This document shows, one piece after another, positions 9,149 through 42,675 of a stretch of DNA of 64,000 nt (its first letter is position 1; every line of letters begins with the position of its first letter). The DNA lies in contig OX387186.1 in the NCBI GenBank assembly GCA_947561395.2, forward strand, positions 40,877,220-40,941,219, written 5' to 3'. This DNA comes from Buxus sempervirens (Eukaryota > Streptophyta > Magnoliopsida > Buxales > Buxaceae). Both the position numbers and the translations under genes were made by a program. Below the pieces are notes generated by a model. It made no database searches. It saw only the letters and a program-made list of their open reading frames with translations, and was not told the DNA's origin.

Positions 9149-9238
9149 TGTAGACACCCCAAATTGCACAAACAATCATCAAAAATCATTATCTCCTGGA
9201 AAGCCAGCACAGAATTTGAAGAAAATAGACTTTTACCT

Positions 9239-9380
9239 GTATCCGGATTGAGTATCCGGAGACAAGTACCCTTTTCCGTATCCGGATAGTCATACCGGAT
9301 ACGTGTGAGCCTTAGCGTATCCGGTACCATGTACCGGATACCTTAAGGCCCTTTGTTATCCGGTCTGACATACCGGATAC
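9239..9380 (+). repeat. Array of short inverted repeats upstream of the TATA box (5' LTR)
   Basis: Four units have the form GTATCCGG, 6-11 bases, CCGGATAC: GTATCCGG-ATTGAGTATCCGG, GTATCCGG-ATAGTCAT-ACCGGATAC, GTATCCGG-TACCATGT-ACCGGATAC and TTATCCGGT-CTGACAT-ACCGGATAC. Spacers are 15-25 bases. The array ends about 155 bases before the TATA box. The 3' LTR carries the same array at 24565-24706. Confidence 0.9.
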
Positions 9381-9536
9381 CTTAAGTTTGCTCAAAATTA
9401 GGGTTTTCCGAGAGCTTTTCACTTTTACCATCATGTCCCTCATTAAATGAGGGGAAATCGCGGAAATAACCTTAGGGTTTAGGTTGGAGGGGTTCTAGAC
9501 ATTAAGTTGTGTCTACCAATGACCTTAGCCCTTGCC

Positions 9537-9544
9537 TATAAATA
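9537..9544 (+). promoter_or_regulatory. TATA box of the 5' LTR
   Basis: CCTTGCCTATAAATAGGAG is a strong plant TATA box, so transcription of the element should start about 30 bases downstream. The same word occurs in the Tat-type solo LTRs at 35495 and 54498. Confidence 0.8.
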
Positions 9545-11427
9545 GGAGTCTCCTCCTTGAGCAAATGGCACACAACTCTTGTTTTGAATTCTCGCAAAGA
9601 AGAACTCCAAGAGAAGAAGAAAACCGCTGTGGAATCGCCTCCAGCACTCAGGTAAGCCTCAACTTTTCTTTTTATTTTCTGTCTTTACATTCCTAGATCT
9701 AGATCTCTTCTTCTACCTTTCTGTAGTGTAAAGCCTTGTTTGTATGTGTGGAAATCCTTCCCCGGCTCAAAGTATCTCAAGACTCCCCTAGCCGTAAAAC
9801 GTGAAGGCGGATCTAGGAGAAACGAGACTGGGGATTGACCCTAGTGCTAGAACCTATGTAGCATAAGGCCTTTTTGATTGATTGTAAACCGTTCCATATT
9901 CAAAGTACCCTTGATTATCTTAAAGAGAACAGAGGGAAACGATAATGGAACGGAACCCTAGGCTATGCTAGAACCTATTTGGTTGAATCTATATGCATGT
10001 TGTATTGATCTTGTTTGTTTTTTTACACTTGCACATACATATCACTATTTCGGCGGGATAGGTTCATATTTGGGGTTTATTGCATTTATTGTGATAAAAC
10101 TCAAATAAATGGCCTCAATCAAATTCTGGAGTGTTTTTAAATGTTTTTCAAAGGTTTTGGATTCATCTCACACGAATCACACACTTTTTGTCAATTTTCG
10201 GATTTGGTTTTCTTCAAAAGTGGCTTAGCTTGACAGCACCTGTACCCTTACTTCGGACACCCATAACTTCATCATCCGGATGAATTTTGGGGTGATTCCA
10301 GAACCATGGGAAAGGTGAGGCTGTCTAGTTTATGTCCACCAAATTTTATGAATTTCTATCTAGCCGATTTTTGACACCTCTCTGTCGAAGTTAAGTGGAC
10401 AGTTCAGGTCCAAGTACAGAACTTGTCACTTCAACGGACCGCCATGTGTTCGTTTTAAGTCCGATTCAAGTGATTTTTATTTCTGAGTACTCCTTTATGA
10501 GTCTATTTTCAAATCCAGTTGGTTTCATAATTTTTGGATTCCATTTGAATTATTGGTAGCCGATTTACTCAGAACTGCTCATTTGCACTTTTCTGGGTAA
10601 ATCTGTGATCTTCGGGGCCTGTTCGGGAGACCACCCAAGGCACACCCGAAGGGATTTTTGTATGAGGCTAGTTTCTGTTGAAAGATGGCCATACAGACTT
10701 CAATCACACCAAATTTCACGGATTTCTATGTAGTGGATTTTTCTAGACAATTTTCCAAAGTTGCCCACTTACCACTTTTAAAAATCCCCAACAGCAACTT
10801 CAAAGGAGCATAACTCCTAGATTTTTCATCGGAATGAAGTGAAATTTTGTATGAGACTCTTATTTACCCTAGTCTTTCAAATGGATTTGGTTGGGTTCAT
10901 TTTAGAATTGGATTTGAATGATTTTAAGGCAAATGGCGTACTTTTTACCAAAATTCCCGGATTTGCCTCAACTTGGTTTTGGCCACTTTTACTTTGATTT
11001 CCATCTTTTGAGATATTCCAGAAGTGATATTGACATAAGAGAGGATCTAAAATCCATTTAGATCTTCATGTGAAAATATCATACATTGTTCCTTTTTCAA
11101 GGCTTTTTCATGATTTTTAGCAAGCTTCTTATTTTCTTTTTAGCATGAACATGCACTTGGCAACCACTTCGTGTGGATGAATGGGGGTGCCTAACACCTT
11201 CCCCCGTTCATAATCTAATCCCCTTACCCATCTCTGGATTTGATTTTCAAGTAGGGTTATTTTTATCCTAGAATTTGTCTTTTGGCTATGTTTGCCTACT
11301 TTTGAATCTTTGGTGTCCATTCTCACCCCAAAATCATGAATGGTGGCGACTCTCCCAATTTTTGCGTTGAGCCCGTGTGTTGACGGAGGGATGATCACTC
11401 CGGTGATTTTTTCCCATGTCTCACAAC

Positions 11428-11445: not shown

Positions 11446-13257
11446 CTTGTGGATTTATGCCATTTTGTGTATATTCATGCTTTTTCATCACTTTTGAATG
11501 CTTGCTATTTTGTTTACTTTATTGGTGTATATTGGTGTATTCTAAATCTGATTGGGATACTTTTAAATTTTACATTGATGAAGGCATGTGTGTATGCTTG
11601 GATATGCTAAGGATCATGTTTAGGGCCTTACTTTGTTGTGCATGCCTACTTGTTTTTTGTTTGCCTTGTGTTAGGAGGTTCTTAGTGCTATTATTTGAGC
11701 ATGAAAATATTGAGCAAAAATCGGTAAATTCAGTAGCCATCATATGGGTTTTCAAGCATGTTTTTACCATCAAAACTCTCCTTATACCATGTCAAGTAGT
11801 TGGTAAATGTTTGGGCATTAATTTGGGGTATAAGTGATGCGCTTTTGAGCATGAGAAATCTGAAAATTTTAGTGCATATTTCTGGAGATTTTAAGCATGT
11901 TTTACCTCATTGAAACACTTTGGTATCATGTCAAGGAGTGCTAAAATTTTAGGCTCCAATTTGGGGTAGAAATGATACACTTTGAGCATGAAAAAGAGCA
12001 TGAAATCTGGGATTTTAGGGAATGCTTTTGAGTTTCAAGCATGCTTACATGATTTAATGGTTGTTTGTACAAATAACATGTTTTGTGTACCACTTTTTGG
12101 GCATGTAATATTTTTTGTGCATATTTAGTTGTTTTGGTGTTTGCTTGCTTGTATTTAGCTTCATTATTTTTGTCATATGTACCTTGGCTTGAAATTGAAT
12201 GCATGGCTACAAAAAAGAGTGGCAAGGGGCTGGGACGTTGTGAATGTTACCACAATTTAAAATTGCACTTGAGCACTTGAAACAATTTGCACAGCCTACC
12301 CTTTACCTATTAGGAAGTTGAACCATGAATGTGTGTAGCTTGGCGCACCGAGGTCGTGACTTCGGAAAGCGAAAGTGAAAACATTTACCATAGAATTTAA
12401 GTCAATGATGTGATGACAATGGGATCTGTGATTCGATTCCGGGCATCACTAGACTTGAGTTCTAAGTTGCCAATTAAGCCAAAACCCAAAAACCATACGC
12501 TTGAAGGTGGAGAAACACGTTTTCAGCTAAAAGCACACAATTGCGTTTGGGGAATTGGGTGTAAATGTGGGAAGACCGTTTGCATGTTTTACAGGCCAAG
12601 GTATAATTTGAATACCATATTGAATGAAGGTAATACAAGGTGGCAAGGTAAAGCCATGTTCTTTTCCTAAATTTGGGGAATTTTGCAAGTATGATGTCCA
12701 AGCCTAATTTGGGGCAAGTTTTGAAGGTCAAATTAAGGTGAACACCAATTGGGAATAAAAAAAACTAATCGGGTGAAAAAATGAGTCAAAAAGGGCCATT
12801 TGGCAATAACCGGCAACTCAGGCCGGTTAATAATAACTGTATTCATATCCGGTACATATTTCCGGATACAAAGGCATATGCGTGTATCCGGTTAGGGTAA
12901 CCGGATACAATAAGGCATATTCTTATCCGGTATAGTATACCGGATACATTCAAAAAATGCACAAATTGGCTTTTCAGCCCAAATTTTCAGAATAAAATGC
13001 CTAAAACACTGTGGATAATCCTTAGGCACCCCGAAAAGAACATAAGAAATGTTCCCAAAAATACAAAATCAAAAAAAAATAAAATTAAAAAAAAACAAAA
13101 AAGGAATAAAATAAAATATTCTTTCAGGGTTTAACCTAAGTCTGAAAATCAAAGAGGAAACCAAGGTGTCATATTTTTTTTGACACCAACTCAACTCAAA
13201 CATGTGTCAATCAAACTCTGGAACTTGAAAACTGAGAAAATTCAGCAAATTTGAAGA
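11446..13257 (+). other. Untranslated leader, first part
   Basis: 1.8 kb between PBS and minisatellite. The open frame 11340-11837 crosses the LTR/PBS boundary and shows no domain, so it is not called. The words GAGCATGAAAA and TTTTAGGC recur loosely at 11690-12020, suggesting old internal duplication. An inverted-repeat array at 12808-12948 is listed separately. An A-rich stretch lies at 13060-13130. Confidence 0.6.
12808..12948 (+). repeat. Second inverted-repeat array, in the leader
   Basis: Four units: AACCGG-CAACTCAGG-CCGGTT, TATCCGG-TACATATTT-CCGGATA, GTATCCGG-TTAGGGTAA-CCGGATAC and TATCCGG-TATAGTATA-CCGGATA. They are separated by AAGGCATAT-type spacers. The arms match the LTR array but the loops differ. 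Confidence 0.9.
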
Positions 13258-14765
13258 AAACCCTTTGGTTGGTTATTTTTATCAATCAAATCAAAAAAAA
13301 AATGAAAACCTTGGTTGGTTATTTTTATCAATCAAATCAAAAAAAGTGGGACACTTGTAAGCCCTAGAATATTCCATGAAAACCTTGGTTGGTTATTTTT
13401 ATCAATCAAATCAAATAAAAAAAAATGAAAACCTTGGTTGGTTATTTTTATCAATCAAATCAAATAAAAAAAATGAAAACCTTGGTTGGTTATTTTTATC
13501 AATCAAATCAAAAAAAAAAAGTGGGACACTTGGAAGCCCTAGAATATTCCATGAAAACCTTTGGTTGGTTATTTTTATCAATCAAATCAAAAAAAAAATG
13601 AAAACCTTGGTTGGTTATTTTTATCAATCAAATCAAAAAAAAATGGGACACTTGGAAGCCCTAGAATATTCCATGAAAACCTTTGGTTGGTTATTTTTAT
13701 CAATCAAATCAAAAAAAAAATGAAAACCTTGGTTGGTTATTTTTATCAATCAAATCAAAAAAAATGGGACACTTGGAAGCCCTAGAATATTCCATGAAAA
13801 CCTTTGGTTGGTTATTTTTATCAATCAAATCAAAAAAAAAATGAAAACCTTGGTTGGTTATTTTTATCAATCAAATCCAAAAAGTGGGACACTTGGAAGC
13901 CCTAGAATATTCCATGAAAACCTTTGGTTGGTTATTTTTATCAATCACATCAAAAAAAAATGAAAACCTTGGTTGGTTATTTTAATCAATCAAATAAAAA
14001 AAAGTGGGACACTTGGAAGCCCTAGAATATTCCATGAAAACCTTGGTTGGTTATTTTTATCAATCAAATCAAAAAAAAAATGAAAACCTTGGTTGGTTAT
14101 TTTTATCAATCAAATCAAAAAAAGTGGGACACTTGGAAGCCCTAGAATATTCCATGAAAACCTTGGTTGGTTATTTTTATCAATCAAATCAAAAAAAAAA
14201 ATGAAAACCTTGGTTGGTTATTTTTATCAATCAAATAAAAAAAATTGAAAACCTTTGGTTGGTTATTTTTATCAATCAAATCAAAACATTTGTGGGATAC
14301 TTGGATAGAATATTCCAAGACACCTTTGGTTGGTTATTTTTATCAATCAAATCAAAACATTTGTGGGATACTTGGATAGAATATTCCAAGACACCTTTGG
14401 TTGGTTATTTTTATCAATCAAATCAAAACATTTGTGGGATAATTGGAAGCCCTAGAATATTCCAAGACACCTTTGGTTGGTTATTTTTATCAATCAAATC
14501 AAAACATTTGTGGGATACTTGGATATAATATTCCAAGATACCTTTGGTTGGTTATTTCTATCAATCAAATCAAAACATTTGTGGGATACTTGGAAGCCCT
14601 AGAATATTCCAAGACACCTTGGTTGGTTATTTTTATCAATCAAATCAAAAAAAAAATTGGGACCCTTGGAAGCCCTAGAATATTCCATAAAAACCTTGGT
14701 TGGTTATTTTTATCAATCAAATCAAAAAAATTATGGGACCCTTGGAAGCCCTAGAATATTCCAAC
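13258..14765 (+). repeat. 1.5-kb minisatellite in the leader
   Basis: About 28 tandem copies of a unit containing CCTTGGTTGGTTATTTTTAT then CAATCAAATCAAA and an A-run of variable length. From 13345 many units add GTGGGACACTTGGAAGCCCT and AGAATATTCCATG, giving a higher-order period of about 120-130 bases. From 14280 a variant with CATTTGTGGGATACTTGG takes over. Open frames crossing it are repeat translations, not genes. It is followed by an A-rich tail (14766-14820). Confidence 0.95.
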
Positions 14766-14869
14766 ACAAAATCAAAACAAAAAAAAAACAAAAAAACAAA
14801 AAAACAAAAAAACAAAAAAATCTGGATTGGTGTTCCCCTGACCTGTTTGTCTACATTTATAGGGGTGTG

Positions 14870-14952: not shown

Positions 14953-15227
14953 CTCCCGTGACCAGATCCAAAGCAAGAGCCATGAATACTGAAGAGAACC
15001 AAGCCCAAGCTACCGTCCCAGCTCAGGACTTTACTCAGCTGCAGGAGCAAGTGGCCGGTCTGGCCAAAATGCTGGGAGACTTACTGGCGGCTCAAGCCCA
15101 GCAGGCCCAAGCCCAAAATCAGGCGTCGACTTCTCATCCGGCACCGCCACCTCAGGCCTATATTCCGCCTCCGGCTCAGCCCATGCCTGAGCCCATTTCT
15201 GATCAGGGAAAATACAGTAGAGTCTGA
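14931..15227 (+). pseudogene. Gag N-terminal part, out of frame with the main gag ORF
   Basis: The frame 14931-15227 contains APVTRSKARAMNTEEN followed by a coiled-coil-like stretch (FTQLQEQVAGLAKMLGDLL) and a Pro/Gln/Ala-rich segment, the usual start of Tat-type Gag. It stops at 15225-15227. The continuing Gag frame (ESEKELEKEKARDEM just before 15262) is shifted by one base, and the shift falls near the GGG run at 15206-15208. The true start codon is unclear: the ATG at 14931 is available, as is one at 14982. Confidence 0.8.
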
Positions 15228-15261
15228 GAAAGAGCTGGAAAAAGAAAAGGCCCGAGATGAG

Positions 15262-17982
15262 ATGGAAAAGAAAATGCTGCTGAGGATAGAAAGAATCCAG
15301 GCAGAGCTGAAAGAGGTGAAGGGGGGAGGCAGCCATGCAGGCACCACCTTCGAGGACCTATGCATGTACCCGGATGTCTGTCTACCGGCTAAGTTCAGGT
15401 GCCCGGATTTTGACAAGTTTGATGGCACGGGCTGCCCATTAAGCCATCTGAAACTATACTGCGGGGCCCTGTGCCAATTTGGCCGGGACGATGGCATACT
15501 GATCCAGCTCTTCCAGAGGAGTCTGACCGGGTCAGCCCTTAGGTGGTTCGCTACAGTGGACCATGGAAGGATCAGGAGGTGGAAGGACTTGGCTGATGCT
15601 TTCTTGGACCAGTACAAGTTCAACTCGGAGATTGTGCCAGACCGGTACGACATGATGAGGATGACCAAGGGGAAAGATGAACCGGTACGGCAGTACGCCA
15701 AGAGATGGAAAGAGGCCGCCTCCCAGGTCAGGCCACCTATGCAAGAGCCGGAGATGATCTCCACCTTTATGGGCACACTGGGGCAGCCCTTTTACAACCA
15801 TCTGGTGGGTCAGATAACCACCAACTTTGCAGCCCTGGTGCAGGTGGCTGACCGGATTGAAGAAGGGGTCAGATCAGGACGGCTGATAGACTACTCTACT
15901 CTGACTGGGCAGTCTGATTCCTCTGCCTCCATGGCCCAGAAGAAAGGGGCCGGGTTTAAAAAGACGGGGGCCCGAAAAGAAGGGGAGGTGAACCTGGTCC
16001 AGGCTCCTCCAGCTAAGAAGCCACTCCACGTCAACATCTCGGCACCCCAACAGGCCCAGCAGGCCCAGCAGTCGTACCAGACCCCGCTGAATGTCAACTT
16101 CCCTCCTTCTGTGCCAGCTAACACAATGAGGACTTTTTCTAAGGAGGAGCGGGATGCCTGGTTCGCAGCAAGGAAGAACCGAGTCTTCACTCCTCTCCCA
16201 ATATCGCTGTCCCAACTACTGCCAACCCTGCTAAAAGGGGAATACTTGACTCTGAAGGAGCCTAACCCAAATGCCCCGAAGGGGAGAAATTTTGACACAT
16301 CGGTCACCTGTGATTTCCACATGGGTGCACTGGGGCATTCTACTGATACCTGCTGGGTATTGAAGCATGCAGTCCAGGATTTGTTGGACCAGAAGGCCTT
16401 GGTGTTCAACACTGCTGCACCGGCCCCGTCCGGGAATGATATTGGGCAGAATCCTCTGCCTTACCACAATGGGGCAGGCCCATCCAACTCCATCACTGCC
16501 ATATCCACCACCAGAAGGGCCTTTGACCCATCACAGCTTATAGCACCAGTAGGGACCACTGTCCAGGTCCGTTTCTTCCAAGAAGAGGAAAAAGAGGAGA
16601 TCAACATGGTCTCCCAAAAAAATAATCTTGCTGCTGAGGACATAAGCTCCTCCTTAAACCGGGTCTCTTCTCTGATGGCCCAGATAAATACTGCAAGGCC
16701 TCCATTGGTCTTCAATTGCAGTCCACCCACTTATTCCCCATCCAAGCCGTATAAGGCTCCACTGGTCATCAATCTTGACCCCACCACTGCTTCCATCACT
16801 TCTTCTGTCCCCACAAATTCCAAACTTCAACCCTTGGTTGTAAATGTGCAGCCAGCCCATGCTATCCCTAAACCGGCCCATACATCCCGGTCCAAACTCC
16901 AGCCATTAGTGGTTAACATCCCTCAATTAGCCTATTCAGAGGCCGCTGTACCATGGAACTACAGCGAGGGAATCACGGCTACGGTTCCAGTGGTCAAAGA
17001 CCAGAACCAGGAGGAGGTGAACCTCATGACGAGGTCAGGGAGATGTGCAGGGGGCGAAGAGAAAGAAAAAGAGACAGAAGTAGAGAAAGAAAAAAAAGAA
17101 AATGAAGAAAAAAGAAAACAGAAAGGAAAAAATAAAGTGGGAGAAGACACCCCCCAGGGTGCAGAAAATGAGGCATCGGACCTCATAAAAATCATAAAAA
17201 AGAGTGAATTTAATCTGGTGGATCAGCTAAACAAGGTCCCGGCCCAGATTTCAATACTGGGCCTTTTGCTGAATTCTGAAAAGCATAGGGATGCATTGTT
17301 AAGGGTGCTACAGAGTGCACACGTGTCCCAAACAATTGATCCGGACCAGCTTGGTAAAATGGTTGGTCAAATCTTGTCACATAATGTGATAAGTTTCTCA
17401 GAGGGTGAGATCAGCCCAGGTGGGTGTTATCATGTGGACCCTTTGCACATCACTGTGCTTTGTAAGGGGTGCATGATTGCACGGGTTTTAATCGACAACG
17501 GGTCAGCGTTAAACGTTTGCCCGTTAATCACTTTTACCAAGCTGGGCCTGGACCAGTCAAGGATCAAACGGAATGGGCGGATAGTAAGGGCTTTTGATAG
17601 CTCCAAGACCCACTCCCTAGGGGAGATTGAACTGCCGGTCACAATTGGGCCGAATATCTTTAACATCACATTTGAAGTGATGGATATACCCGCAGCATTC
17701 AATCTGCTCCTAGGAAGGCCGTGGATACACTCGGCTAGGGCAATACCATCCACGCTCCACCAAAGAGTGAAGTATGTAAGAGGGCAAAGGGTGATAACAG
17801 TCCTAGCCGAAAACTTGGTGCCGCCCATTGTGTCACCTGATGTACCATTAATCAATGTGGACTTGACTGTCGACAAGATTGCATTCCACTCATTTCAATT
17901 TGAGGCGGTAAATTACATACCTGGGGGTGTGAGAAAAAGAAGGAAAAGGGGACCACTGCAGAAAAAATGGTCAAGAAAGTGA
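15262..17982 (+). CDS. Gag-protease polyprotein, 906 codons
   Basis: Structural and processing part of the Tat element. The first ATG in this frame is used, but the frame is open upstream, where the Gag N-terminus lies in another frame. Residues about 45-205 form the retrotransposon gag core (RCPDFDKFDGTGCPLSHLK, LRWFATVDHG, WKDLADAFLDQYKFN, RQYAKRWKEAA). Around residue 350 CDFHMGALGHSTDTC is a C-x2-H-x5-H-x4-C zinc-binding knuckle of the type seen in this lineage. A long Pro-rich linker and a Lys/Glu-rich stretch (about 595-635) follow. The aspartic protease has its catalytic D745 in LIDNGSALNV and the partner ILLGRPW-like motif LLLGRPWIHSA near residue 815. The frame ends at 17980-17982 shortly after the protease, at an A-run where the next domain is in the -1 frame. 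Confidence 0.93.
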   Translation: MEKKMLLRIERIQAELKEVKGGGSHAGTTFEDLCMYPDVCLPAKFRCPDFDKFDGTGCPLSHLKLYCGALCQFGRDDGILIQLFQRSLTGSALRWFATVDHGRIRRWKDLADAFLDQYKFNSEIVPDRYDMMRMTKGKDEPVRQYAKRWKEAASQVRPPMQEPEMISTFMGTLGQPFYNHLVGQITTNFAALVQVADRIEEGVRSGRLIDYSTLTGQSDSSASMAQKKGAGFKKTGARKEGEVNLVQAPPAKKPLHVNISAPQQAQQAQQSYQTPLNVNFPPSVPANTMRTFSKEERDAWFAARKNRVFTPLPISLSQLLPTLLKGEYLTLKEPNPNAPKGRNFDTSVTCDFHMGALGHSTDTCWVLKHAVQDLLDQKALVFNTAAPAPSGNDIGQNPLPYHNGAGPSNSITAISTTRRAFDPSQLIAPVGTTVQVRFFQEEEKEEINMVSQKNNLAAEDISSSLNRVSSLMAQINTARPPLVFNCSPPTYSPSKPYKAPLVINLDPTTASITSSVPTNSKLQPLVVNVQPAHAIPKPAHTSRSKLQPLVVNIPQLAYSEAAVPWNYSEGITATVPVVKDQNQEEVNLMTRSGRCAGGEEKEKETEVEKEKKENEEKRKQKGKNKVGEDTPQGAENEASDLIKIIKKSEFNLVDQLNKVPAQISILGLLLNSEKHRDALLRVLQSAHVSQTIDPDQLGKMVGQILSHNVISFSEGEISPGGCYHVDPLHITVLCKGCMIARVLIDNGSALNVCPLITFTKLGLDQSRIKRNGRIVRAFDSSKTHSLGEIELPVTIGPNIFNITFEVMDIPAAFNLLLGRPWIHSARAIPSTLHQRVKYVRGQRVITVLAENLVPPIVSPDVPLINVDLTVDKIAFHSFQFEAVNYIPGGVRKRRKRGPLQKKWSRK

Positions 17983-18662
17983 TGGAGAAATACCACTTTC
18001 ACCCAGGGAAAGGCCTGGGGATCAATCTGCAGGGGATGGTGGAGCCAATCACGGCTAAGAAACTGATCCCCAAGGTAGGGTTGGGCTTCAAGCCCAGAGG
18101 CTGGAGAAGAATGAAGCACGAAGAAGGGGAGAGCAGAAGCAAAGGAAAACTCCCTCATTTAAGGGAAAGTTTCCCTAAACCCTCCTACATAATCCAAATT
18201 TCACCTCCCATAGACCAGTCCAAGCCCCCATACCGAAATGACAATCCATTTCAAAAGCCCATTGTTTCGGCCTTACAACCCTATAACCCATCTCCAATAC
18301 TGGGAGCAGTGGATGGGCCTGGACCACAGCCCGAGCAATAGGTGGACTTTTCTGAAAATGTTGGGGCTTTCTTCGCCATGACTGAAGGCGAAAAGACTGA
18401 CGGTGACATGGACCTGCCGTTCATTGACTGGGCCGCAGTAAAGATTCCAGACAAGGTCATTTCTGGATTGGGCCCCGTAGCAGAAAAGGGCAGTACCCAC
18501 CCAGTGATGATGGCATCGGATTCTGGGTTTGAAGAGCAGGCTTTCCCTATTTCCCCTGCTCCCCAAAATTTTGTACTGAACAATTGGGAGGAAACTCCCC
18601 TTACCTTTGAAGCAGCGTTAGTTCGGCAAACTGACGCGGCTTCCAAAAAAAAACTCCAATAG
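17967..18662 (+). pseudogene. G-patch-like linker between protease and reverse transcriptase, broken
   Basis: The frame from 17967 reads KYHFHPGKGLGINLQGM and GLGFKPRG, a glycine-rich G-patch-like module found between protease and RT in many Tat-type elements. It is -1 relative to gag-protease, the shift falling in the six A residues at 17962-17967. A TAG stands at 18339-18341, after which the same frame continues (FSENVGAFFAM, IDWAAVKIPDK) to a TAG at 18660-18662. The RT frame is entered through another shift at the nine-A run 18645-18653. Either these are three lesions, or the region is bypassed by splicing or frameshifting, as Ogre relatives do with an intron here. Confidence 0.7.
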
Positions 18663-21600
18663 TGGATTGCCATTTCCCTGAAGGTTCTAATGGGCCTTCG
18701 TCTTCAGGGGAATTATGTTTAGAAGGCCCACAAAAAACCCAAAAAGATTTTTCTATTTTTTTTAGAAAATTTAAATTTTTCAAAAAGGTCCAAACCACTT
18801 ATGAACCATATAATCAGACCGAATTGGACCAGGTTGAATATGACTTCGACCTTGAGCTCGACTTTGATCTCATGGGGGTCGAAGAAGAGACCGAGGTCGA
18901 AGAAGAAGACGTTCCAAAAGAAATTGAATACCAATTGGAACGTCATGAAAAGGGGGTCCAACCTAATATTGAGGAGACCATATCCATAAATCTTGGGACC
19001 GAAGAGGACCCAAAAATTGTGAAAATCGGGTCATGCTTGTCTGATATGCAGAAAAATGAAATGTCACAATTCTTGGCAGATTACAAGGATGTGTTCGCTT
19101 GGTCATATCGGGACATGCCGGGGTTGGACACGGACATGGTGGTGCATAAGTTGCCAATTTTACCAGGGGTTAAGCAGATTAAGCAGAAGCTGAGAAGATT
19201 GAAGCCTGAATGGACCTTAAAGGTCAAGGACGAAGTGGTCAAACAATTTCAAGCCGGATTTTTGGCAGTCTCTACGTACCCAGAGTGGCTCGCAAACATA
19301 GTGCCGGTACCCAAGAAGGACGGGAAAGTCCGAATGTGCGTGGACTACAGAGATTTGAACAAGGCAAGCCCAAAGGACGATTTTCCGCTTCCACACATCG
19401 ACATTCTGGTCGATAATACTGCGGTACATAGCCTGTTTTCCTTCATGGATGGTTTCTCAGGATATAATCAGATCAAGATGGCTAAGGAAGATCAAGAGAA
19501 AACAGCATTTATCACACCTTGGGGCACATTTCACTATACAGTCAAGCCATTTGGGCTTAAAAACGCTGGGGCAACATACCAGCGGGCCATGACTGCACTA
19601 TTTCATGACATGATCCATAAGGAGATGGAGGTCTACGTAGACGATATGATTGCCAAATCATGCAAAGAGGAGGACCACTTGATCAATCTGAAGAAAGTGT
19701 TTGATCGGCTCAGGAAGTACAGTTTACGGCTTAACCCGGCTAAGTGCGTCTTTGGGGCTACATCAGGGAAGTTACTGGGGTTTATAGTGAGCCGAAGAGG
19801 AATTGAAATTGACCCGGCTAAAGCCAAGGCCATAATTGAAATGCCGGCACCCAGAACTGAGAAGGAGGTCAGGGGTTTTCTTGGAAGGATTCAATACATA
19901 AGCCGGTTCATAGCACAGCTCACTGCTATCTGTGAACCAATTTTCAAACTTTTGAGGAAAGATAACCCGACGGTCTGGAATGAGGACTGCCAGCAGGCAT
20001 TTGACACAATAAAGAGGTATTTGCTGAACCCACCTGTGCTAGTGCCACCAACTCCAGGAAGACCACTGATCCTGTACTTGTCAGTGTTGGAAACGTCAAT
20101 GGGATGTGTCTTGGGGCAGCATGATGAGACTGGTAGAAAAGAAAGGGCAATTTACTATCTGAGTAAAAAATTCACGGAATATGAAGCCAAATACTCACCA
20201 TTGGAAAAGACTTGCTGTGCTCTAGTATGGGCCACTCAGAGGCTAAGGCATTATTTCCTTAGTCACTCCACACTATTGATATCCCGGATGGACCCGCTGA
20301 AGTATTTGTTTGAGAAACCGGCACTGACTGGCAGAACGGCTAAGTGGCAACTACTACTGTCCGAATTTGACCTCACATACATCACCCAGAAGGCAATCAA
20401 GGGTCAAGCCATAGCTGATCACCTGGCTGCACATCCTCTGCCAGAATATCAACCCTTGAAGACCAACTTTCCCGATGAGGCGATTATGTACACTGAAGAG
20501 GAGGACAGTGAGAGTTCTTGGCAGATGTTCTTTGATGGGGCCGCCAATATGAATGGGAACGGAATAGGGGCAGTCTTGGTTAAACCAGATGGTTCGCACA
20601 TCCCGATTGCAGTAAAGCTGAGATTCCAGTGCACCAATAACATAGCAGAATATGAAGCATGCATAATTGGATTGCAAGCAGCCATGGATCATGGAGTAGA
20701 GGAACTTGACGTATACGGGGATTCGAGTCTTATCATCTTCCAAACAACTGGTGAGTGGAAAACCAAGGATCACAAATTGATCCCCTATCACCAGTATTTG
20801 GAAGAAATAAGCACAAATTTCACTCGAATTTCCTTCAACTATATGCCAAGGGCCAAGAATCAGTTTGCGGATGCTCTAGCAACCTTGGCTTCAATGGTCA
20901 GCATATCAAAAGGAGTAGACATCAGACCACTGGAAATTGAGGTCCGAGATGAACCGGCTTACTGTCTCGTTCTAGAGGGAGCACCAGAAGAAGAAGCACC
21001 ATGGTTTCAAGATATCAAGAACTTCTTGAATAATCGGAGTTTGCCAGAAAATGCCACTGCTACTGAGAAGAGGACAATACAGAGATTGGCTGGTCAATTT
21101 CTGCTAAGCGGTGGACATGTGTACAAGAGATCGCATAACGACATTCTGCTAAGATGCGTTGCCAAGGCTGAATCGGAAAGGCTGATTGAGACTGTACATG
21201 GAGGAGTCTGTGGGCCCCATATGAGTGGACACATGTTGGCGAAGAAGATCCTGAGGCTGGGATACTACTGGACAACCATGGAGCATGATTGCTGTATACA
21301 TGTCAGGAGGTGCCACCAATGCCAGATATATGCAGATAATAAGCATGCACCCCTAGGTGAGCTGCATAACATGACATCACCCTGGCCCTTCTCTATGTGG
21401 GGCATAGATGTCATCGGCATGATCTCCCCTAAGGCATCGAATGGGCACAGATTCATCCTGGTGGCGATTGATTACTTCACTAAATGGGTAGAAGCAGCAT
21501 CATACGCAAATATCACAAGCAACCATGTGATCAAATTTTTGAAGCACAACATTATTTGTCGCTATGGGCTTCCAAGTGCCATAGTATCAGACAATGCTTC

Positions 21601-22084
21601 AAATATCAAGAACAAGGACATGAAGAAAATGTGTGAGCAGTTTCAGATCACCCACCATAAGTCAGCTCCATACAGGCCAAAGATGAATGGGGCAGTGGAA
21701 GCAGCAAACAAGAATATAAAGAAAATCATTCAAAAGATGGTAATAAGCTACAAGGATTGGCACGAAATGTTGCCACTTGCTCTGCATGCATACAGAACCT
21801 CAATCCGGACTTCAACTGGGGCAACCCCGTACTCCCTAGGCTCGGGCCATTCTCTTAGTGCTAAAGAACTTTCCAAGAAGGAAACTTTCCAAGAAGGAAA
21901 CTTAGTGCTAAAGAAAATCTTACCATTTTTGGAAGATCCTCGTGGTAAGTTCAAGCCCAATTGGGAAGGCCCATATGTCGTCAAGAAAGTCCTGTCAGGG
22001 GGTGCACTCATCTTAGCAGAAATGGATGGGTCAGATTTTCCTGAGCCCATTAACTCTGATGCAGTAAAAAGGTATTTTCCTTGA
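18662..22084 (+). CDS. Pol polyprotein: RT, RNase H, second RNase H, integrase (1140 codons)
   Basis: It encodes the replication enzymes of the Tat element. The listed start is GTG, not ATG, so the frame is probably reached from upstream. RT occupies about residues 170-345 (VDYRDLNKASPKDDFPLPHI, FMDGFSGYNQIKMA, catalytic Y325-V-D-D328). The connection/RNase H follows (LFEKPALTGRTAKWQ, about 545). A second, archaeal-like RNase H has FFDGAANMNGNGIGAVLV with Asp625, NIAEYEACIIGL, YGDSSLI and KNQFADALATLA, the hallmark of the Tat lineage. Integrase has an H-H-C-C zinc finger (about 840-890, ending CHQCQ) and catalytic D916, D977 and E1013; D977 and E1013 have 35 residues between them, as expected of DDE integrases. 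Beyond TPYSL (about residue 1058) the C-terminal part is rearranged and short but keeps WEGPYVVKKV. It ends with TGA at 22082-22084. Confidence 0.93.
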   Translation: MDCHFPEGSNGPSSSGELCLEGPQKTQKDFSIFFRKFKFFKKVQTTYEPYNQTELDQVEYDFDLELDFDLMGVEEETEVEEEDVPKEIEYQLERHEKGVQPNIEETISINLGTEEDPKIVKIGSCLSDMQKNEMSQFLADYKDVFAWSYRDMPGLDTDMVVHKLPILPGVKQIKQKLRRLKPEWTLKVKDEVVKQFQAGFLAVSTYPEWLANIVPVPKKDGKVRMCVDYRDLNKASPKDDFPLPHIDILVDNTAVHSLFSFMDGFSGYNQIKMAKEDQEKTAFITPWGTFHYTVKPFGLKNAGATYQRAMTALFHDMIHKEMEVYVDDMIAKSCKEEDHLINLKKVFDRLRKYSLRLNPAKCVFGATSGKLLGFIVSRRGIEIDPAKAKAIIEMPAPRTEKEVRGFLGRIQYISRFIAQLTAICEPIFKLLRKDNPTVWNEDCQQAFDTIKRYLLNPPVLVPPTPGRPLILYLSVLETSMGCVLGQHDETGRKERAIYYLSKKFTEYEAKYSPLEKTCCALVWATQRLRHYFLSHSTLLISRMDPLKYLFEKPALTGRTAKWQLLLSEFDLTYITQKAIKGQAIADHLAAHPLPEYQPLKTNFPDEAIMYTEEEDSESSWQMFFDGAANMNGNGIGAVLVKPDGSHIPIAVKLRFQCTNNIAEYEACIIGLQAAMDHGVEELDVYGDSSLIIFQTTGEWKTKDHKLIPYHQYLEEISTNFTRISFNYMPRAKNQFADALATLASMVSISKGVDIRPLEIEVRDEPAYCLVLEGAPEEEAPWFQDIKNFLNNRSLPENATATEKRTIQRLAGQFLLSGGHVYKRSHNDILLRCVAKAESERLIETVHGGVCGPHMSGHMLAKKILRLGYYWTTMEHDCCIHVRRCHQCQIYADNKHAPLGELHNMTSPWPFSMWGIDVIGMISPKASNGHRFILVAIDYFTKWVEAASYANITSNHVIKFLKHNIICRYGLPSAIVSDNASNIKNKDMKKMCEQFQITHHKSAPYRPKMNGAVEAANKNIKKIIQKMVISYKDWHEMLPLALHAYRTSIRTSTGATPYSLGSGHSLSAKELSKKETFQEGNLVLKKILPFLEDPRGKFKPNWEGPYVVKKVLSGGALILAEMDGSDFPEPINSDAVKRYFP
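21854..21915 (+). repeat. Symmetric X-U-U-X duplication inside integrase
   Basis: CTTAGTGCTAAAGAA (21854-21868) is followed by CTTTCCAAGAAGGAAA twice (21869-21884 and 21885-21900) and again by CTTAGTGCTAAAGAA (21901-21915). It sits where relatives have a longer segment between the catalytic core and the GPY region. A deletion repaired by template switching would explain it. Confidence 0.85.
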
Positions 22085-23044: not shown

Positions 23045-23929
23045 CTAGTCTCCTAGCCGCTCCTCAAGCTCCCGAATCCGAGCTGCCTGAGCTGCAATGA
23101 CTTCTAAAGCCCCCTCTGCAGCGGGATCACTCAGGAAGGAAATGACCTCATCTGAAAGGGCCTGCTTAATCCTCATACTCTTAAGGCTGGCCAAAGTAGC
23201 CTGGTACTTCTGCCGAATCATACGGACCTCGAAGCAACGGGCCTGCCTCTGCTCCTCCAGCTTCTCTTCCACGGCAATACGGCGTGAGATCTGCTCCTCA
23301 AGCTGCCTCTCCAGATAAGCGCCTTGTATCCTGAGCTCCTGGGCCTCCCGCACCCATATCTGCTGAAGCCGCTTATGAGAAGCCCGCTCAGACTCTAGAA
23401 TGTCCTCATAAGTAGGAGCCAAGACTACAGGAGGATCTTCGGGTACCGGGGCCTGAGTCTGTATCTGTTCCTTGATCCAGAAGAGATAATCCTTCACATG
23501 GGCTTCTGAGAAGACTGGACCATGCATAAAGCGGACATAAGACCACTCCTTCATCAACCAGGCATTCAGCTTCATAGAAAGGGGCCCAAGACGATCCTCA
23601 TATCCACATGGGATAATAATCCCCTGGGTCGCACGGAACTGACGAAGGACCCGCAGAGGAAGATAAAGCACTGCATGCCTCAGGCCAGCCAGAATCAGAA
23701 AGTTGCGGTCTCGGAAGCTAATCACTGTCTCCGCATTGGGCTGATAAGTGCCAGGCCATCTCACCTGGTCCTCCTGAAGTGAGCCCAAGAAAGTAAACCA
23801 GCCCTGTTTGCCCCCTGGAATATCGGGGCACCCCCTGTTGCTCATCAAGAGAGGGACTTTCAGACTCGGGAAGAAGTGTCGATTGATCTCTTCAATCTGG
23901 CTCAAATGATCAAGTAGCCAAAGCTGCAA
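23045..23929 (-). CDS. Antisense extra ORF of the Tat element, DUF7745-like, 294 codons
   Basis: The frame is antisense between pol and the 3' LTR, where Grande/Retand-type members of the Tat group carry an additional antisense ORF. The N-terminal half (GKQGWFTFLGSLQEDQVRW, DRNFLILAGLRHAVLYLPLR, VLRQFRATQG, WLMKEWSYVRFMHGP) resembles the W-, LRQ- and ATQ-bearing domain known as DUF7745, found in plant mobile-element proteins related to plant mobile domains. The C-terminal half (about residues 180-294) is a predicted coiled coil rich in Glu/Arg/Gln (YLERQLEEQISRRIAVEEKL, ARIRELEERLGD). The function is unknown. It is open along 294 codons. The first Met lies directly after a splice-acceptor-like sequence, so an upstream exon may be missing. 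Confidence 0.75.
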   Translation of the reverse strand: MQLWLLDHLSQIEEINRHFFPSLKVPLLMSNRGCPDIPGGKQGWFTFLGSLQEDQVRWPGTYQPNAETVISFRDRNFLILAGLRHAVLYLPLRVLRQFRATQGIIIPCGYEDRLGPLSMKLNAWLMKEWSYVRFMHGPVFSEAHVKDYLFWIKEQIQTQAPVPEDPPVVLAPTYEDILESERASHKRLQQIWVREAQELRIQGAYLERQLEEQISRRIAVEEKLEEQRQARCFEVRMIRQKYQATLASLKSMRIKQALSDEVISFLSDPAAEGALEVIAAQAARIRELEERLGD

Positions 23930-24070
23930 AGGAAGAGAGATGTGTCAGCACATTGTATAAAAAATAAAAAAAAGCAAAAAAAAAAAAAAAAAAGAGGCAA
24001 AAAGAAAGAAAAAAAAAAGAAAGAAGAAAAAAAGAAAGAAAAAAAAAAGAAAAGGAAAAGGAAAGAGCAA
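23930..24070 (-). promoter_or_regulatory. Polypyrimidine tract and 3' splice site upstream of the antisense ORF
   Basis: The plus strand is almost pure A/G from about 23960 to 24070, so the minus strand is a long pyrimidine run. It leads to CTCTCTTCCTTTGCAG, ending at about 23930, immediately before the antisense frame. This is what a plant acceptor looks like and suggests the antisense transcript is spliced. No donor was identified. Confidence 0.45.
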
Positions 24071-24474: not shown

Positions 24475-26751
24475 TGTAGACACCCCAAATTGCACAAACA
24501 ATCATCAAAAATCATTATCTCCTGGAAAGCCAGCACAGAATTTGAAGAAAATAGACTTTTACCTGTATCCGGATTGAGTATCCGGATACAAGTACCTTTT
24601 TCCGTATCCGGATAGTCATACCGGATACGTGTGAGCCTTAGCGTATCCGGTACCATGTACCGGATACCTTAAGGCCCTTTGTTATCCGGTCTGACATACC
24701 GGATACCTTAAGTTTGCTCAAAATTAGGGTTTTCCGAGAGCTTTTCACTTTTACCATCATGTCCCTCATTAAATGAGGGGAAATCGCGGAAATAACCTTA
24801 GGGTTTAGGTTGGAGGGGTTCTAGACATTAAGTTGTGTCTACCAATGACCTTAGCCCTTGCCTATAAATAGGAGCCTCCTCCTTGAGCAAATGGCACACA
24901 ACTCTTGTTTTGAATTCTCGCAAAGAAGAACTCCAAGAGAAGAAGAAAACCGCTGTGGAATCGCCTCCAGCACTCAGGTAAGCCTCAACTTTTCTTTTTA
25001 TTTTCTGTCTTTACATTCCTAGATCTAGATCTCTTCTTCTACCTTTCTGTAGTGTAAAGCCTTGTTTGTATGTGTGGAAATCCTTCCCCGGCTCAAAGTA
25101 TCTCAAGACTCCCCTAGCCGTAAAACGTGAAGGCGGATCTAGGAGAAACGAGACTGGGGATTGACCCTAGTGCTAGAACCTATGTAGCATAAGGCCTTTT
25201 TGATTGATTGTAAACCGTTCCATATTCAAAGTACCCTTGATTATCTTAAAGAGAACAGAGGGAAACGATAATGGAACGGAACCCTAGGCTATGCTAGAAC
25301 CTATTTTGTTGAATCTATATGCATGTTATATTGATCTTGTTTGTTTTTTTACACTTGCACATACATATCACTATTTCGGCAGGATAGGTTCATATTTGGG
25401 GTTTATTGCATTTATTGTGATAAAACTCAAATAAATGGCCTCAATCAAATTCTGGAGTGTTTTTAAATGTTTTTCAAAGGTTTTGGATTCATCTCACACG
25501 AATCACACACTTTTTGTCAATTTTTGGATTTGGTTTTCCTCAAAAGTGGCTTAGCTTGACAGCACCTGTACCCTTACTTCGGACGCCCATAACTTCATCA
25601 TCCGGATGAATTTTGGGGTGATTCCAGAACCATGGGAAAGGTGAGGCTGTCTAGTTTATGTCCACCAAATTTTATGAATTTCTATCTAGCCGATTTTTGA
25701 CACCTCTCTGTCGAAGTTAAGTGGACAGTTCAGGTCCAAGTACAGAACTTGTCACTTCGACGGACCGCCATGTGTTCGTTTTAAGTCCGATTCAAGTGAG
25801 TTTTATTTCTGAGTACTCCTTTATGAGTCTATTTTCAAATCCAGTTGGTTTCATAATTTTTGGATTCCATTTGAATTATTGGTAGCCGATTTAATCAGAA
25901 CTGCTCATTTGCACTTTTCTGGGTAAATCTGTGATCTTCGGGGCCTGTTCGGGAGACCACCCAAGGCACACCCGAAGGGATTTTTGTATGAGGCTAGTTT
26001 CTGTTGTAAGATGGCCATACAGACTTCAATCACACCAAATTTCATGGATTTCTATGTAGTGAATTTTTCTAGACAATTTTCCAAAGTTGCCCACTTACCA
26101 CTTTTAAAAATCCCCAACAGCAACTTCAAAGGAGCATAACTCCTAGATTTTTCATCGGAATGAAGTGAAATTTTGTATGAGACTCTTATTTACCCTAGTC
26201 TTTCAAATGGATTTGGTTGGGTTCATTTTAGAATTGGATTTGAATGATTTTAAGGCAAATGGCGTACTTTTTACCAAAATTCCCGGATTTGCCTCAACTT
26301 GGTTTTGGCCACTTTTACTTTGATTTCCATCTTTTGAGATATTCCAGAAGTGATATTGACATAAGAGAGGATCTAAAATCCATTTAGATCTTCATGTGAA
26401 AATATCATACATTGTTCCTTTTTCAAGGCTTTTTCATGATTTTTAGCAAGCTTCTTATTTTCTTTTTAGCATGAACATGCACTTGGCAACCACTTCGTGT
26501 GGATGAATGGGGGTGCCTAACACCTTCCCCCGTTCATAATCTAATCCCCTTACCCATCTCTGGATTTGATTTTCAAGTAGGGTTATTTTTATCCTAGAAT
26601 TTGTCTTTTGGCTATGTTTGCCTACTTTTGAATCTTTGGTGTCCATTCTCACCCCAAAATCATGAATGGTGGTGACTCTCCCAATTTTTGCGTTGAGCCC
26701 GTGTGTTGACGGAGGGATGATCACTCCGGTGATTTTTTCCCATGTCTCACA
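24475..26751 (+). mobile_element. 3' LTR of the Tat element
   Basis: 2277 bp, colinear with 9149-11425. Differences by eye include G/T and C/T in the array (near 24583), C for T near 24875 and T for C near 26674. The inverted-repeat array is at 24565-24706 and the TATA box at 24863-24870. Confidence 0.97.
24565..24706 (+). repeat. Array of short inverted repeats upstream of the TATA box (3' LTR)
   Basis: Same four GTATCCGG/CCGGATAC units as 9239-9380, with two substitutions. One of them restores GTATCCGGATAC in place of GTATCCGGAGAC. Confidence 0.9.
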
Positions 26752-26840: not shown

Positions 26841-27984
26841 TACCAGATTTCCCAAATTTTGAGTTTTGAACCCAGATTGAACTACCACTTGTTTTCCTTC
26901 AAATCCAACCCATGTATAAGTGAGAGTTTGGTGTTTAGGAGGTGTTCCAACTGGATTTATCACGAAATTCCAAATATTAAAGATTTTGGGTACGTTTAGC
27001 TAGAATAGGTCTCATAGAGGAAGTAGTGTTCCAAATTTTTATAGAAGTGGGATAAATTGATTCCACCACTTCAAATACCTTCCAAATAACCTATGAAAGC
27101 TGAATACAAGGACCGAACCCAAATTGCATAAGTTTCAAAAGGGTCGAAGCATAGATTGCCAAGTTGGGTCATGAAATGTAAGAAAGGTTCTAAAAATGCG
27201 ATTCTTGCCCAAATTGAACCACCAAGTCTTTGTATTCAAATCCAACCTACGTATAAGCGAGAATTACTTGTCTAGGAATTATCCCAACTGGAAGTATCTC
27301 GAAATTCCAATTAACAATGACTTTGGGTATGTGTCACCAACGGAGATCTTACAAAGAGTTTTTGTCCCAAATTACTATAGAATTAGGATAACTTGTTTCC
27401 ACCACTTCGAGCACCTTTTAATTAACCTTTAGAAATAGAAATCAAGAACCAAGACCAAGTTATACAAGTATCTAAGAACTAAGGCATAGGTTGCCCAAAT
27501 GAGTCCTGGAAAGTGGAATCTCTAGTAAAGCCAACCCTTTACCATTGATCTTTATAGTGAGTACACCCCACTAAATATGATAGGCTTCAACCTGGAATTG
27601 GCACAAGACATGGAGGGCATTAGCCCGTACTTAATTACGAGATAGGAAGGGCATTGGCCCGTTACTTGTAATATGAGATGGAAAGGGCTGTGGCCCATGG
27701 ATAACAATAATTCAATAAATGAAGGGGCAGTGGCCCCATGGCATTGGTATATGTACATTGAGAAGAGGACAGGGGCCCATGGTTATTGATAGTGAATGTA
27801 GGGCAGTGGCCCAAGAATGACTCGGGTAAGGCCATAGGCTACCCTTGAGATCTGGCATGCCTGAGTGCATGACCCACCTAATATTGGAAGTAACCTTACT
27901 ATTGCCCATGTTATATAAATAGGATTGTTATACATATGCTCCATGGCCAAGTGCCATTGTTACTACCAAAGTTATACAGTATCT

Positions 27985-28335
27985 TTCCGGCACCATGTGT
28001 AATCGGTAGCCAATGCCCATTTGCTATGTGTAATCAGTAGTGGATGGATATGTTATTCCGGCACCATGTGTAATCGGTAGCCGATGCCCATTTGCTATGT
28101 GTAATCAGTAATTGATAAGTATCTTTCCGGCACCATGTGTAATCGGTAGCCGATGCCCATTTGCTATGTGTAATCAGCAATTGATAAGTATCTTTCCGGC
28201 ACCATGTGTAATCAGTAGCCGATGCCCATTCGCTATGTATAATCAGCAATGGACGGATATGTTATTCTGGCACCATGTGTAATCAGTAGTCGATGCCCAT
28301 TGGCTATGTGTAATCAGCAATGCATGTGTACTAAA
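27985..28335 (+). repeat. Minisatellite of about 69 bp in the solo LTR
   Basis: Units built from CCGGCACCATGTGTAATCGG, then TAGCCGATGCCCATTTGC and TATGTGTAATCAG, repeat about five times with small changes. Below it (27600-27850) a looser run repeats GGGCATTGGCCCGT-like words. This is the second variable cassette of this LTR family. Confidence 0.85.
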
Positions 28336-34928: not shown

Positions 34929-34982
34929 TGTTTGCTTATTTACATGTAATATCTTAATTAAATGGAGATTATAAATATAAGT

Positions 34983-35197
34983 ACATTTACTTAAACGATA
35001 TTACATGTAAATAAGTATTGCCTGTGCAGGCAAGGGTCAATGCCATGTAGAAGCTGTGCAGAGAAGCTTTTTTTTTTTTGTATCCGACATATACATTTAC
35101 TTAAACGATATTACATGTAAATAAGTATTGCCTGTGCAGGCAAGGGTCAATGCCATGTAGAAGCTGTGCAGAGAAGCTTTTTTTTTGTATCCGACAT
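34983..35197 (+). repeat. 110-bp tandem duplication
   Basis: The segment from ACATTTACTTAAACGATATT to the T-run before GTATCCGACAT occurs at 34983-35092 and again from 35093, nearly identical. It brings two copies of GCCTGTGCAGGC, itself a palindrome. Confidence 0.9.
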
Positions 35198-35328
35198 TAT
35201 ATGTCGGATACAAGCCTTTTTCTTCGTATCCGACATTATACGTCGGATACAAGCCTTTTGCTTTGTATCCGAAATTTTTTGTCGAATACAAAGATTTTTG
35301 TTTGTATCCGACAACTCATGTCGAATAC
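35187..35328 (+). repeat. Inverted-repeat array upstream of the TATA box, GTATCCGACA type
   Basis: Four units: GTATCCGACA-TTATA-TGTCGGATAC, GTATCCGACA-TTATA-CGTCGGATAC, GTATCCGAAA-TTTTT-TGTCGAATAC and GTATCCGACA-ACTCA-TGTCGAATAC. The layout matches 9239-9380, but arms and loops differ: the arm is 10 bases and the loop 5. Confidence 0.92.
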
Positions 35329-41456: not shown

Positions 41457-42526
41457 TATGCGCACCCGATTTCGGTCGCACGACGAGGCGCACGCAAAAC
41501 GATGCGTGCCTCGGGATTTGTTTGGAGTCGCCACTACCTGATGGGGTGCAGGCAGACACCTGGGTGCCTAAGTTTTTCTATTAGGGCTTGGTCTGCGGCT
41601 TGAGATTCTAAGTAGGTTCTCGGTTGCGGTCTGAGGAAGTCCGTAGACACCCCAGTCCACCCCGTCAAGTGACGGGTCCCATAAGTTTCCTTGGTTTGAG
41701 TCAACTCAGTTGGTCTCTCACTCACCCGATTCCTAGTCCAGCATTCAATTTTGGTTAAGTCTGGCGGGACCGCCAAAGTGGTGTGGGTCCCTTTACTTGA
41801 TTTTATCTTTTTAATTAAGATGATCTGGGCCTGGTGGGGTGGGCCCCGTTGGAAGGCCCACGGATTCCTTGGTGGGCTCGGTTGAGCCCACATGTCCCCT
41901 TTGGTGGGCCCCAGTCTAAACCTGAGAGGCCCTTTGGGCTTTGGTTCAAATGAATTGATTTTTATTTGAAGTTTAAGTTTGATTATTTAAGTGGATTTCA
42001 TGCCAAAAGTGGGCCGGGACTACTTGTGGGCCCTTGAGTGGGCCACACAGTCAGTTGCCAAGTGATTTGGATTTATCTTTCTTATCTGTGCCAAAATGGG
42101 CCAAGCATTGGGCTTGGGGCCCTTTACCTGGGCTCGGGCTTGAAAGACCAAGACTTTCTGAGATAAGGTTTGGAAACCCTACACTTGTTTGGTTTAATGG
42201 GCTTAGTGGGCCCGACAGGCCCTACCCGTGGTCTCGGCCAAACCACATCCTACTTTAAGCATGCATGGCCCAAATAGGGCCTGGTGGGCCTCAAATGGTC
42301 TGGCCCACTCAAATCTTTTATTTATCTTAGTTAAGCACAAATAAATTGGTCGGGCTTAGTGGGCCCCGTTGGAAAACCCACTGGGAATCAACTTGGACCG
42401 GGTCGGTCCATAGCCCATTTTGGGTTTCCGGGTCATCCGGAAACCCTACTGGTTCGCCCGAATTTGATCAAACAATCCAGAATATTGCACAAAATCATGA
42501 AAATGGGAAAACAGCATTCTGGCAGT

Positions 42527-42675
42527 GTAGCCGGCCTGAGATGCCGGTTACACACATAGGCCAGTGTATCCAGCATCTATTGCTGGCTACCAATGGAACT
42601 CAGTGTGTCCGGCATCTATTGCCGGTTACACATACATCTCCGTTGATCCGGCCTGAGTTACCGGATCAACCTACA
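42527..42675 (-). repeat. Inverted-repeat array, GTAGCCGGC type
   Basis: GTAGCCGG-CCTGAGATG-CCGGTTAC, GTATCCAGC-ATCTATT-GCTGGCTAC, GTGTCCGGC-ATCTATT-GCCGGTTAC and TTGATCCGG-CCTGAGTTA-CCGGATCAA: four units with four different arm sequences in one array, each internally complementary. Confidence 0.9.

Follow-up and report, generated by a model that had tools for sequence, protein, structure and literature searches.

Palindromic motifs designated RM have been described for the Sireviruses, which belong to the Ty1/copia elements, and are located upstream of the TATA box and of the env-like gene (Bousios et al. 2010, PMC2829016). In this study, the motifs are 10-20 bp long, occur at least eight times per element and start 200-400 bp into the LTR (PMC2829016). 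For maize, Ty3 elements as a class have been described as having no obvious hairpin peak (PMC10760457). Within the Ty3 elements, a dual RNase H is a trait of the Tat lineage (PMC9289625), and Tat, Retand and Grande elements carry antisense accessory ORFs in a long region between pol and the 3' LTR (Vicient 2025, PMC11963269; Vicient and Casacuberta 2020, PMC7264820). The antisense gene of Grande has its own promoter, and the accessory proteins are thought to be nuclear or DNA-binding, their role being described as an open question (PMC11963269, PMC7264820). The presence of the plant mobile domain (PMD) in plant Gypsy elements is already known (PMC9289625). For the host PMD proteins MAIN and MAIL1, targets are tied to the promoter motif DOWN, whose binder is given as unknown in these reports (PMC7156037, PMC9899485).

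The DNA compared with these systems here is a stretch of 64,000 nucleotides from Buxus sempervirens (hereafter the window; C8:40877220-40941219 of the 676.5-Mb assembly), which, judged from its sequence and domain matches, probably consists mostly of LTR retrotransposons. The arrays of inverted repeats in these elements are, by analogy, best read as the Ty3/Tat equivalent of the palindromic motifs of Sireviruses, with RM as the closest precedent.

Host element and array geometry

The best-kept element of the window has two LTRs of 2277 bp each (9149-11425 and 24475-26751; 99.3% identity) and a PBS-like site at 11428, after the 5' LTR. Its gag (14986-17979) and pol (18635-22081) are located on the plus strand, and pol encodes RT, RNase H, a second RNase H (RVT_3) and integrase. 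As the second RNase H lies between RT/RNase H and integrase, the element has the Ty3/Tat order. A large minisatellite with units of ~46, ~120 and ~147 bp occupies 13256-14768 in the leader, between the leader array described below and gag. Further tandem repeats were observed at 27978-28322 (69-bp unit, ~5 copies) and at 51094-51662, 56562-56827 and 63203-63348 (units of ~22 bp with a GGTACCTTAG-like core). At C1:8464577-8571859, eight same-strand LTR matches follow each other in seven steps of ~15.32 kb, nearly the distance from one LTR to the other in the window element (15,326 bp); this suggests a tandem in which a short form of the element is repeated head to tail.

The majority of the inverted repeats are dyads of 25 bp with the form GTATCCGG-N9-CCGGATAC, typically four of them at steps of exactly 39 bp, which gives an array of 142 bp. 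The motif GTATCCG occurs 36 times in the window compared with 2.3 expected, a count reached in 0 of 100 shuffles, and a step of exactly 39 bp separates two 25-bp dyads in 16 cases, compared with 0 in each of 20 dinucleotide shuffles. When periods from 35 to 43 were tried, four-dyad arrays were found at 39, plus a single match at 43. Genome-wide (676.5 Mb), a search for GTATCCGG-N{3,15}-CCGGATAC yielded 20,502 dyads, 20,444 of them (99.7%) with N9, and 0 in the reversed controls. The distance between dyads is likewise fixed: CCGGATAC-N{10,20}-TATCCGG yielded 14,760 matches on one strand and 14,909 on the other (controls 16 and 12), and the single gap that produces the 39-bp step accounts for 14,481 and 14,642 of these matches, respectively (~98%; controls 0). 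Where dyads follow each other within less than 60 bp in the loci that were read, the step is 39 bp in 100 of 104 cases and 38 bp in 4, with one 38-bp step each in L007 and L008. Modules of four dyads in 142 bp are usual; three plus two dyads occur in the type found at 43 kb, and pairs of dyads before the 3' LTR.

In the best-kept element, one four-dyad array is located in U3 of the 5' LTR (9239-9380, plus strand), 156 bp before a TATA box at 9537, and the same array recurs in the 3' LTR (24565-24706, plus strand) with the same gap of 156 bp. These twins differ at 2 of 142 positions, and one of the differences breaks a pair of dyad 1. The leader carries another four-dyad array (12806-12947, plus strand) ~1.4 kb past the PBS-like site, with a compensated change in dyad 1 (TAACCGG/CCGGTTA) and no facing TATA box within 175 bp. 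A divergent LTR has a four-dyad array at 35187-35328 (plus strand; TATA box 166 bp beyond), in which left-arm position 8 is A, with T opposite, in all four dyads, so that both sides have changed. Immediately beside this array lies a 110-bp tandem duplication (34982-35197) with one half-site copy. In a minus-strand LTR with a PBS-like site at 41525-41533, three plus two dyads (43765-44010) end 11 bp upstream of the TATA box, a layout that is shared by L024 and L025. The R/U5 part of the same LTR contains a four-dyad array without facing TATA box (42527-42668, minus strand) and, beside it, a single 25-bp dyad that is paired throughout and has other arms (GGGTTTCC; 42422-42446, minus strand). A related minus-strand LTR piece has a three-dyad R/U5 array (60781-60883) and a lone 25-bp dyad in the place corresponding to 42422 (60676-60700, minus strand). 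A single 25-bp dyad with the arms GAATTCTCC is found at 62417-62441 (minus strand), 141 bp from a minus-strand TATA-like site (TTTATA, 62270-62275). With about 0.18 such repeats of 11-base arms expected per 64 kb at uniform base composition, this hairpin is not significant alone.

The LTR at 54 kb uses a different half-site, TACGGGC, which is arranged on a 14-bp grid (54306-54484, plus strand; TATA box 13 bp past this stretch). Genome-wide, TACGGGCA-N{3,12}-TGCCCGTA was found 3,007 times (control 64), with a spacing of N5 and one exception among the matches listed. In the window and L026-L028, all 21 of 21 neighbouring TACGGGC half-sites within 60 bp are separated by multiples of 14 bp. TATA-like sites flank the array on both sides in L026-L028, and the direction of the promoter is therefore ambiguous there.

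All inverted repeats that an initial annotation of the window had listed, including the single hairpin at 62417, were found at their positions, and the gaps to the TATA box given above agree with its range of 10-170 bp. Its description of arrays upstream of the TATA box holds for U3 but missed the arrays in the leader (12806-12947) and in R/U5 (42527-42668 and 60781-60883) as well as the lone dyads at 42422 and 60676, which are further repeats of the array kind outside the pre-TATA sites. The arm letters, which it took to differ from LTR to LTR, do so only for 54306-54484 and 62417, whereas TATCCG is common to 9239, 24565, 35187 and 43765. Similarly, what appeared as loops of 5-11 bases is a varying extent of pairing on top of a fixed dyad length and step.

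Arms and loops differ strongly in constancy. In an in-register comparison of seven U3 arrays (21 pairs), mean identity is 0.92 for arms, 0.54 for loops, 0.57 for spacers and 0.87 for the next 175 bp; these arrays were picked for perfect register, and the absence of indels among them is no evidence by itself. For the pair of window array 24565 and L006, the values are 0.97 downstream, 0.98 in the arms and 0.36 in the loops. The six pairs involving the 35-kb LTR, which is the most divergent, show a modest difference, with 0.81-0.84 in the arms compared with 0.71-0.73 downstream. At L006:4883-5340, the upstream part and the array resemble L016, and identity to the window LTR is 0.97 past the array. 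This LTR is thus apparently a mosaic, broken at the 3' edge of the array, which suggests that part of the turnover of loops and spacers is due to the exchange of array pieces.

The array as a single large palindrome was not supported, as loop 1 agrees with the reverse complement of loop 4 at 2-4 of 9 positions in 12 of 17 arrays and at 5-7 of 9 in the other 5. A coding repeat (39 bp correspond to 13 codons) was rejected as a common function because three of the five window arrays checked (9239, 12806 and 24565) have stops in all six frames; open frames are present in 35187 and 42527. With respect to microbial relatives, the two-dyad pattern had one exact match in a genome collection, in the chromosome of Mycolicibacterium sediminis (L001:3473-3518), which was taken as chance, and 0 matches in the viral contigs searched. 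The listed literature matches to the motif letters were apparently incidental sequence text.

Placement before LTR and antisense-gene promoters

Array placement was determined in the window and in 18 ten-kb stretches, of which 15 had been picked for motif hits on contig C1 and three were arbitrary; no array was found in the three arbitrary stretches. TATA boxes and PBS were identified by pattern and the places of the arrays were assigned by hand in this targeted sample from one genome. Among the 39 arrays placed, 19 are located in U3, 7 in the leader, 5 before an antisense ORF, 6 immediately upstream of the 3' LTR and 2 in R/U5. A facing TATAAAW within 175 bp was found for 18 of 19 U3 arrays, the 19th running off the end of its locus, and for all 5 antisense-gene arrays, compared with 541 of 5000 random 142-bp windows. 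At the other places, a facing TATA box occurs with 1 of 7 leader arrays, 0 of 2 R/U5 arrays and 0 of 6 arrays before the 3' LTR, which leaves 14 of these 15 arrays without one. Accordingly, the link to promoters that had been proposed initially applies to the U3 arrays and to the antisense gene, but the array is not a promoter-only feature. For the leader and R/U5 arrays, promoter control alone is not a sufficient explanation; enhancers acting from downstream or an RNA role could account for them.

Between U3 array and TATA box lie 155-156 bp in the main family and 166-167 bp in two other families; the window's 43-kb type has a gap of 11 bp, and L024 and L025, which are related to it, have one of 13 bp. 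In the 43-kb family, U3 outside the array did not align with the others, yet the dyads and the gap of 11-13 bp are kept.

In full-length relatives, the region from pol to the 3' LTR, which is the place of Retand-type accessory genes, contains antisense ORFs. The ORF adjoining the array has matches to DUF7745 and the Plant mobile domain that exceed the cut-off in L010 (E 7.1e-19 and 5.3e-13), L013, L020 and L015; in L018, both stay below it (E 7.6e-05 and 1.4e-04). In all five loci, the array is followed by the TATA box after exactly 12 bp, and an in-frame ATG lies 116-118 bp past the TATA start. The first PMD frame apparently enters an intron, given that the following block of the domain is encoded in another frame. 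A second antisense PMD ORF is located nearer the 3' LTR on the minus strand (L013:5872-6888, L018:5986-7038, L010:5799-6773 and L015:4906-5856; below cut-off in L020), and no four-dyad array was found directly before this ORF in L010, L013, L015 and L018. The window copy lacks the stretch that carries the array, the TATA box and the first block of the antisense gene in relatives; a later block is represented by an antisense ORF of 299 aa (23048-23944, minus strand) with a weak DUF7745 match below cut-off (E 0.035). Among the 17 antisense ORFs scanned (1 + 10 + 6), 8 match PMD above cut-off and 0 match TRP28 (PF04195). Genome-wide, CCGGATAC is followed by TATAAATGC after 8-17 bases in 186 and 191 cases on the two strands (controls 0), and the gap in these putative antisense promoters is 12 bp, with one exception among the matches listed.

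Constant half-sites, fixed spacing, free loops and the placement before two kinds of TATA box together point to a DNA-binding dimer and a common cis-module. The arrays are therefore best read as operators for a dimeric DNA-binding factor that are common to the LTR and antisense-gene promoters, a reading to which we give a probability of roughly 60%. The dimeric-factor site suggested in the initial annotation likewise fits the fixed arms and spacing. The array would represent a DNA operator (enhancer) module of eight TATCCGG half-sites, presented as four 25-bp dyads at 39-bp steps, and a dimeric or higher-order sequence-specific factor would bind these half-sites. The bound factor would act on the downstream TATA box. 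Its target in the LTR would be the LTR's own box; full-length relatives would have a second target in the TATA box of the antisense PMD gene located between pol and the 3' LTR, and the two transcription units of the element may thereby form one regulon. The sign of this regulation may be activation or escape from silencing. Tat families would differ in half-site and grid, with TATCCGG or TATCCGA at 39 bp and TACGGGC on 14 bp. The operator reading is weighed down by the 15 of 39 arrays located away from U3 and antisense promoters, by the modest difference between arms and downstream sequence in the 35-kb LTR pairs, by the sample, which was picked for motif hits on one contig, and by the symmetric arm changes and the loop inversion (see below), which indicate that pairing matters at some stage.

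It is rather doubtful, though conceivable, that the factor is the antisense PMD protein of the element itself, which would make the arrays part of a self-recognising module that activates or shields the LTR and antisense promoters. A nuclear protein would then be produced from an antisense promoter bearing an LTR-type four-dyad array, and half-sites and protein would co-diverge among families, for which position 8 of the 35-kb LTR and the TACGGGC grid are possible instances. LBD, GARP and MYB-related plant factors were also considered as candidate binders.

Arm pairing and hairpin copying

The two arms of the dyads co-vary, though the majority of single deviations is uncompensated. In 95 distinct dyads, 65 deviating pair cells are changed on one side, 15 are changed on both sides and paired, and 7 are changed on both sides and unpaired. 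With L024 and L025 added (104 distinct dyads), there are 19 double-paired cells compared with a shuffle mean of 4.4, and 0 of 1000 shuffles reach 19, in a test that ignores kinship although the changes trace to few events. At position 8, A/T on the two sides was counted 8,452 times genome-wide (controls 2) and mixed states 2,184 and 2,203 times (controls 5 and 2); G/C occurs at least 20,444 times, a count made with longer arms, and the resulting odds ratio for paired states is ~36. The compensatory arm changes expected from the initial annotation are thus present, but one-sided changes predominate.

A further indication of pairing comes from slot 1 of the array. The form GTATCCGGAT-TGAGT-ATCCGGATAC is found in window array 24565, L017 and L018, and with one change in window array 9239, whereas L012 and L013, as well as L009 and L010 with one change, have the form GTATCCGGAT-ACTCA-ATCCGGATAC between near-identical flanks. 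In the same right-hand context, the TGAGT form occurs 107 and 94 times and the ACTCA form 270 and 284 times on the two strands of the genome (controls 0). Inversion of the loop through a hairpin accounts for the two forms, five substitutions in five bases being far less likely. Hairpin inversions of this kind are known in chloroplast DNA. Judged from these loop sequences, the palindrome behaves as a structure at least during copying, and occasional hairpin copying of this type may be a route by which the arms are kept matched.

Pairing could also serve the element as RNA or as single-stranded DNA. Hairpins might function in packaging, dimerisation or reverse transcription, when located in the leader or at the 3' end of the genomic RNA, or might be a source of small RNA as proposed for Sireviruses, where a small-RNA excess has been reported at the palindromic regions (PMC10760457). 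Predicted folds are indeed strong, with a z of -11.3 for one array as DNA and of -2.8 to -12.0 for 11 stretches as RNA, and the arrays within the transcribed leader and R/U5, the symmetric arm changes and the loop inversion are all consistent with such a role. However, hairpins need neither exact spacing nor fixed letters, the outermost bases pair in no more than 57 of 92 distinct dyads, and the U3 and antisense arrays lie upstream of the TATA box and thereby outside the 5' end of the transcript. In addition, mismatches at sense-strand positions 2-8 comprise 12 A.C and 12 G.T, and this lack of a wobble bias leaves selection on RNA pairing unsupported. We therefore regard a hairpin function as unlikely.

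The loop inversion would equally be expected if the arrays were a functionless palindromic minisatellite that is tidied by template switching and exchange between LTRs. The faster turnover of loops and spacers than of flanks, the mosaic-like L006, the occurrence of arrays in several non-coding places and the richness of the window in other tandem repeats agree with such a by-product of copying. It is nevertheless improbable, as it explains neither the constant half-site letters across families despite the change of loops, nor the single dyad length in 99.7% of 20,502 dyads, nor the exact 12-bp placement before the antisense TATA box in 5 of 5 loci. A signal for integration or recombination, where other elements would preferentially insert at the palindromes or LTR exchange would be favoured there without a transcriptional role, is highly improbable, because the placement before two kinds of TATA box and the fixed spacing stay unexplained, even if plant LTR elements reportedly often target palindromes (PMC6911290) and the L006 LTR switches affinity at the 3' edge of its array.

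Comparison with known systems

The operator reading can be set against four groups of described elements and proteins. As in Retand and Grande elements, the elements described here have a long region between pol and the 3' LTR with antisense ORFs, but these encode PMD/DUF7745 here and mainly TRP28 there. An array common to LTR and antisense promoters is not reported in the available portions of PMC11963269 and PMC7264820. Furthermore, in the open-licence literature, represented mostly by titles and abstract openings, no previous description of palindromic arrays was recognised for the LTRs of Tat, Retand or Ogre elements. A conserved array before both the LTR and the accessory-gene promoters would offer a direct handle on the role of the accessory genes, namely to find the binder of TATCCGG-N9-CCGGATA, and the LTR promoter could be under the control of one and the same factor as that of the second gene, which is carried backwards.

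MAIN and MAIL1 resemble the present system in that a PMD family is linked to a promoter DNA motif, but they are host genes. A PMD gene that is borne by an element together with a ready operator would inform both the field of accessory genes and that of host PMD proteins. VANDAL elements are DNA transposons whose anti-silencing protein VANC binds family-specific arrays of short motifs. The arrays described here likewise consist of short motifs particular to a family, lie in non-coding parts of an element and accompany a gene for a presumably nuclear protein, but the element is a retrotransposon, and a binder is hypothesised here whereas VANC binds its motifs.

The strongest likeness is to Sirevirus RM. 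Both systems have a CGG-CCG core, which appears as CGG-N9-CCG in the TATCCGG dyads, and the TACGGGC dyads also hold CGG and CCG; the 62-kb dyad is without this core. In both, the motifs cluster in the LTR shortly upstream of the TATA box, as in 18 of 19 U3 arrays here, and vary in sequence among families. By analogy, both have copies beside an extra gene, which is env-like in Sireviruses and the antisense PMD ORF in 5 of 5 loci here, and the RM of a Citrus element (AATCCGGCTWRCCGGATT) includes the half-site ATCCGG (PMC2829016). Unlike in Sireviruses, the carrier is a Ty3/Tat and not a Ty1/copia element, and copies are also found before the antisense gene, in the leader and in R/U5. The array begins 90 bp into the window LTR and has four dyads, so that eight are reached only by summing the arrays of an element. 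Dyads of 25 bp with a fixed N9, modules of four and exact 39-bp steps set the present arrays apart from RM. Palindromic LTR control regions, as known from the copia Sireviruses, would thus be extended to Ty3/gypsy elements, with a much stricter geometry.
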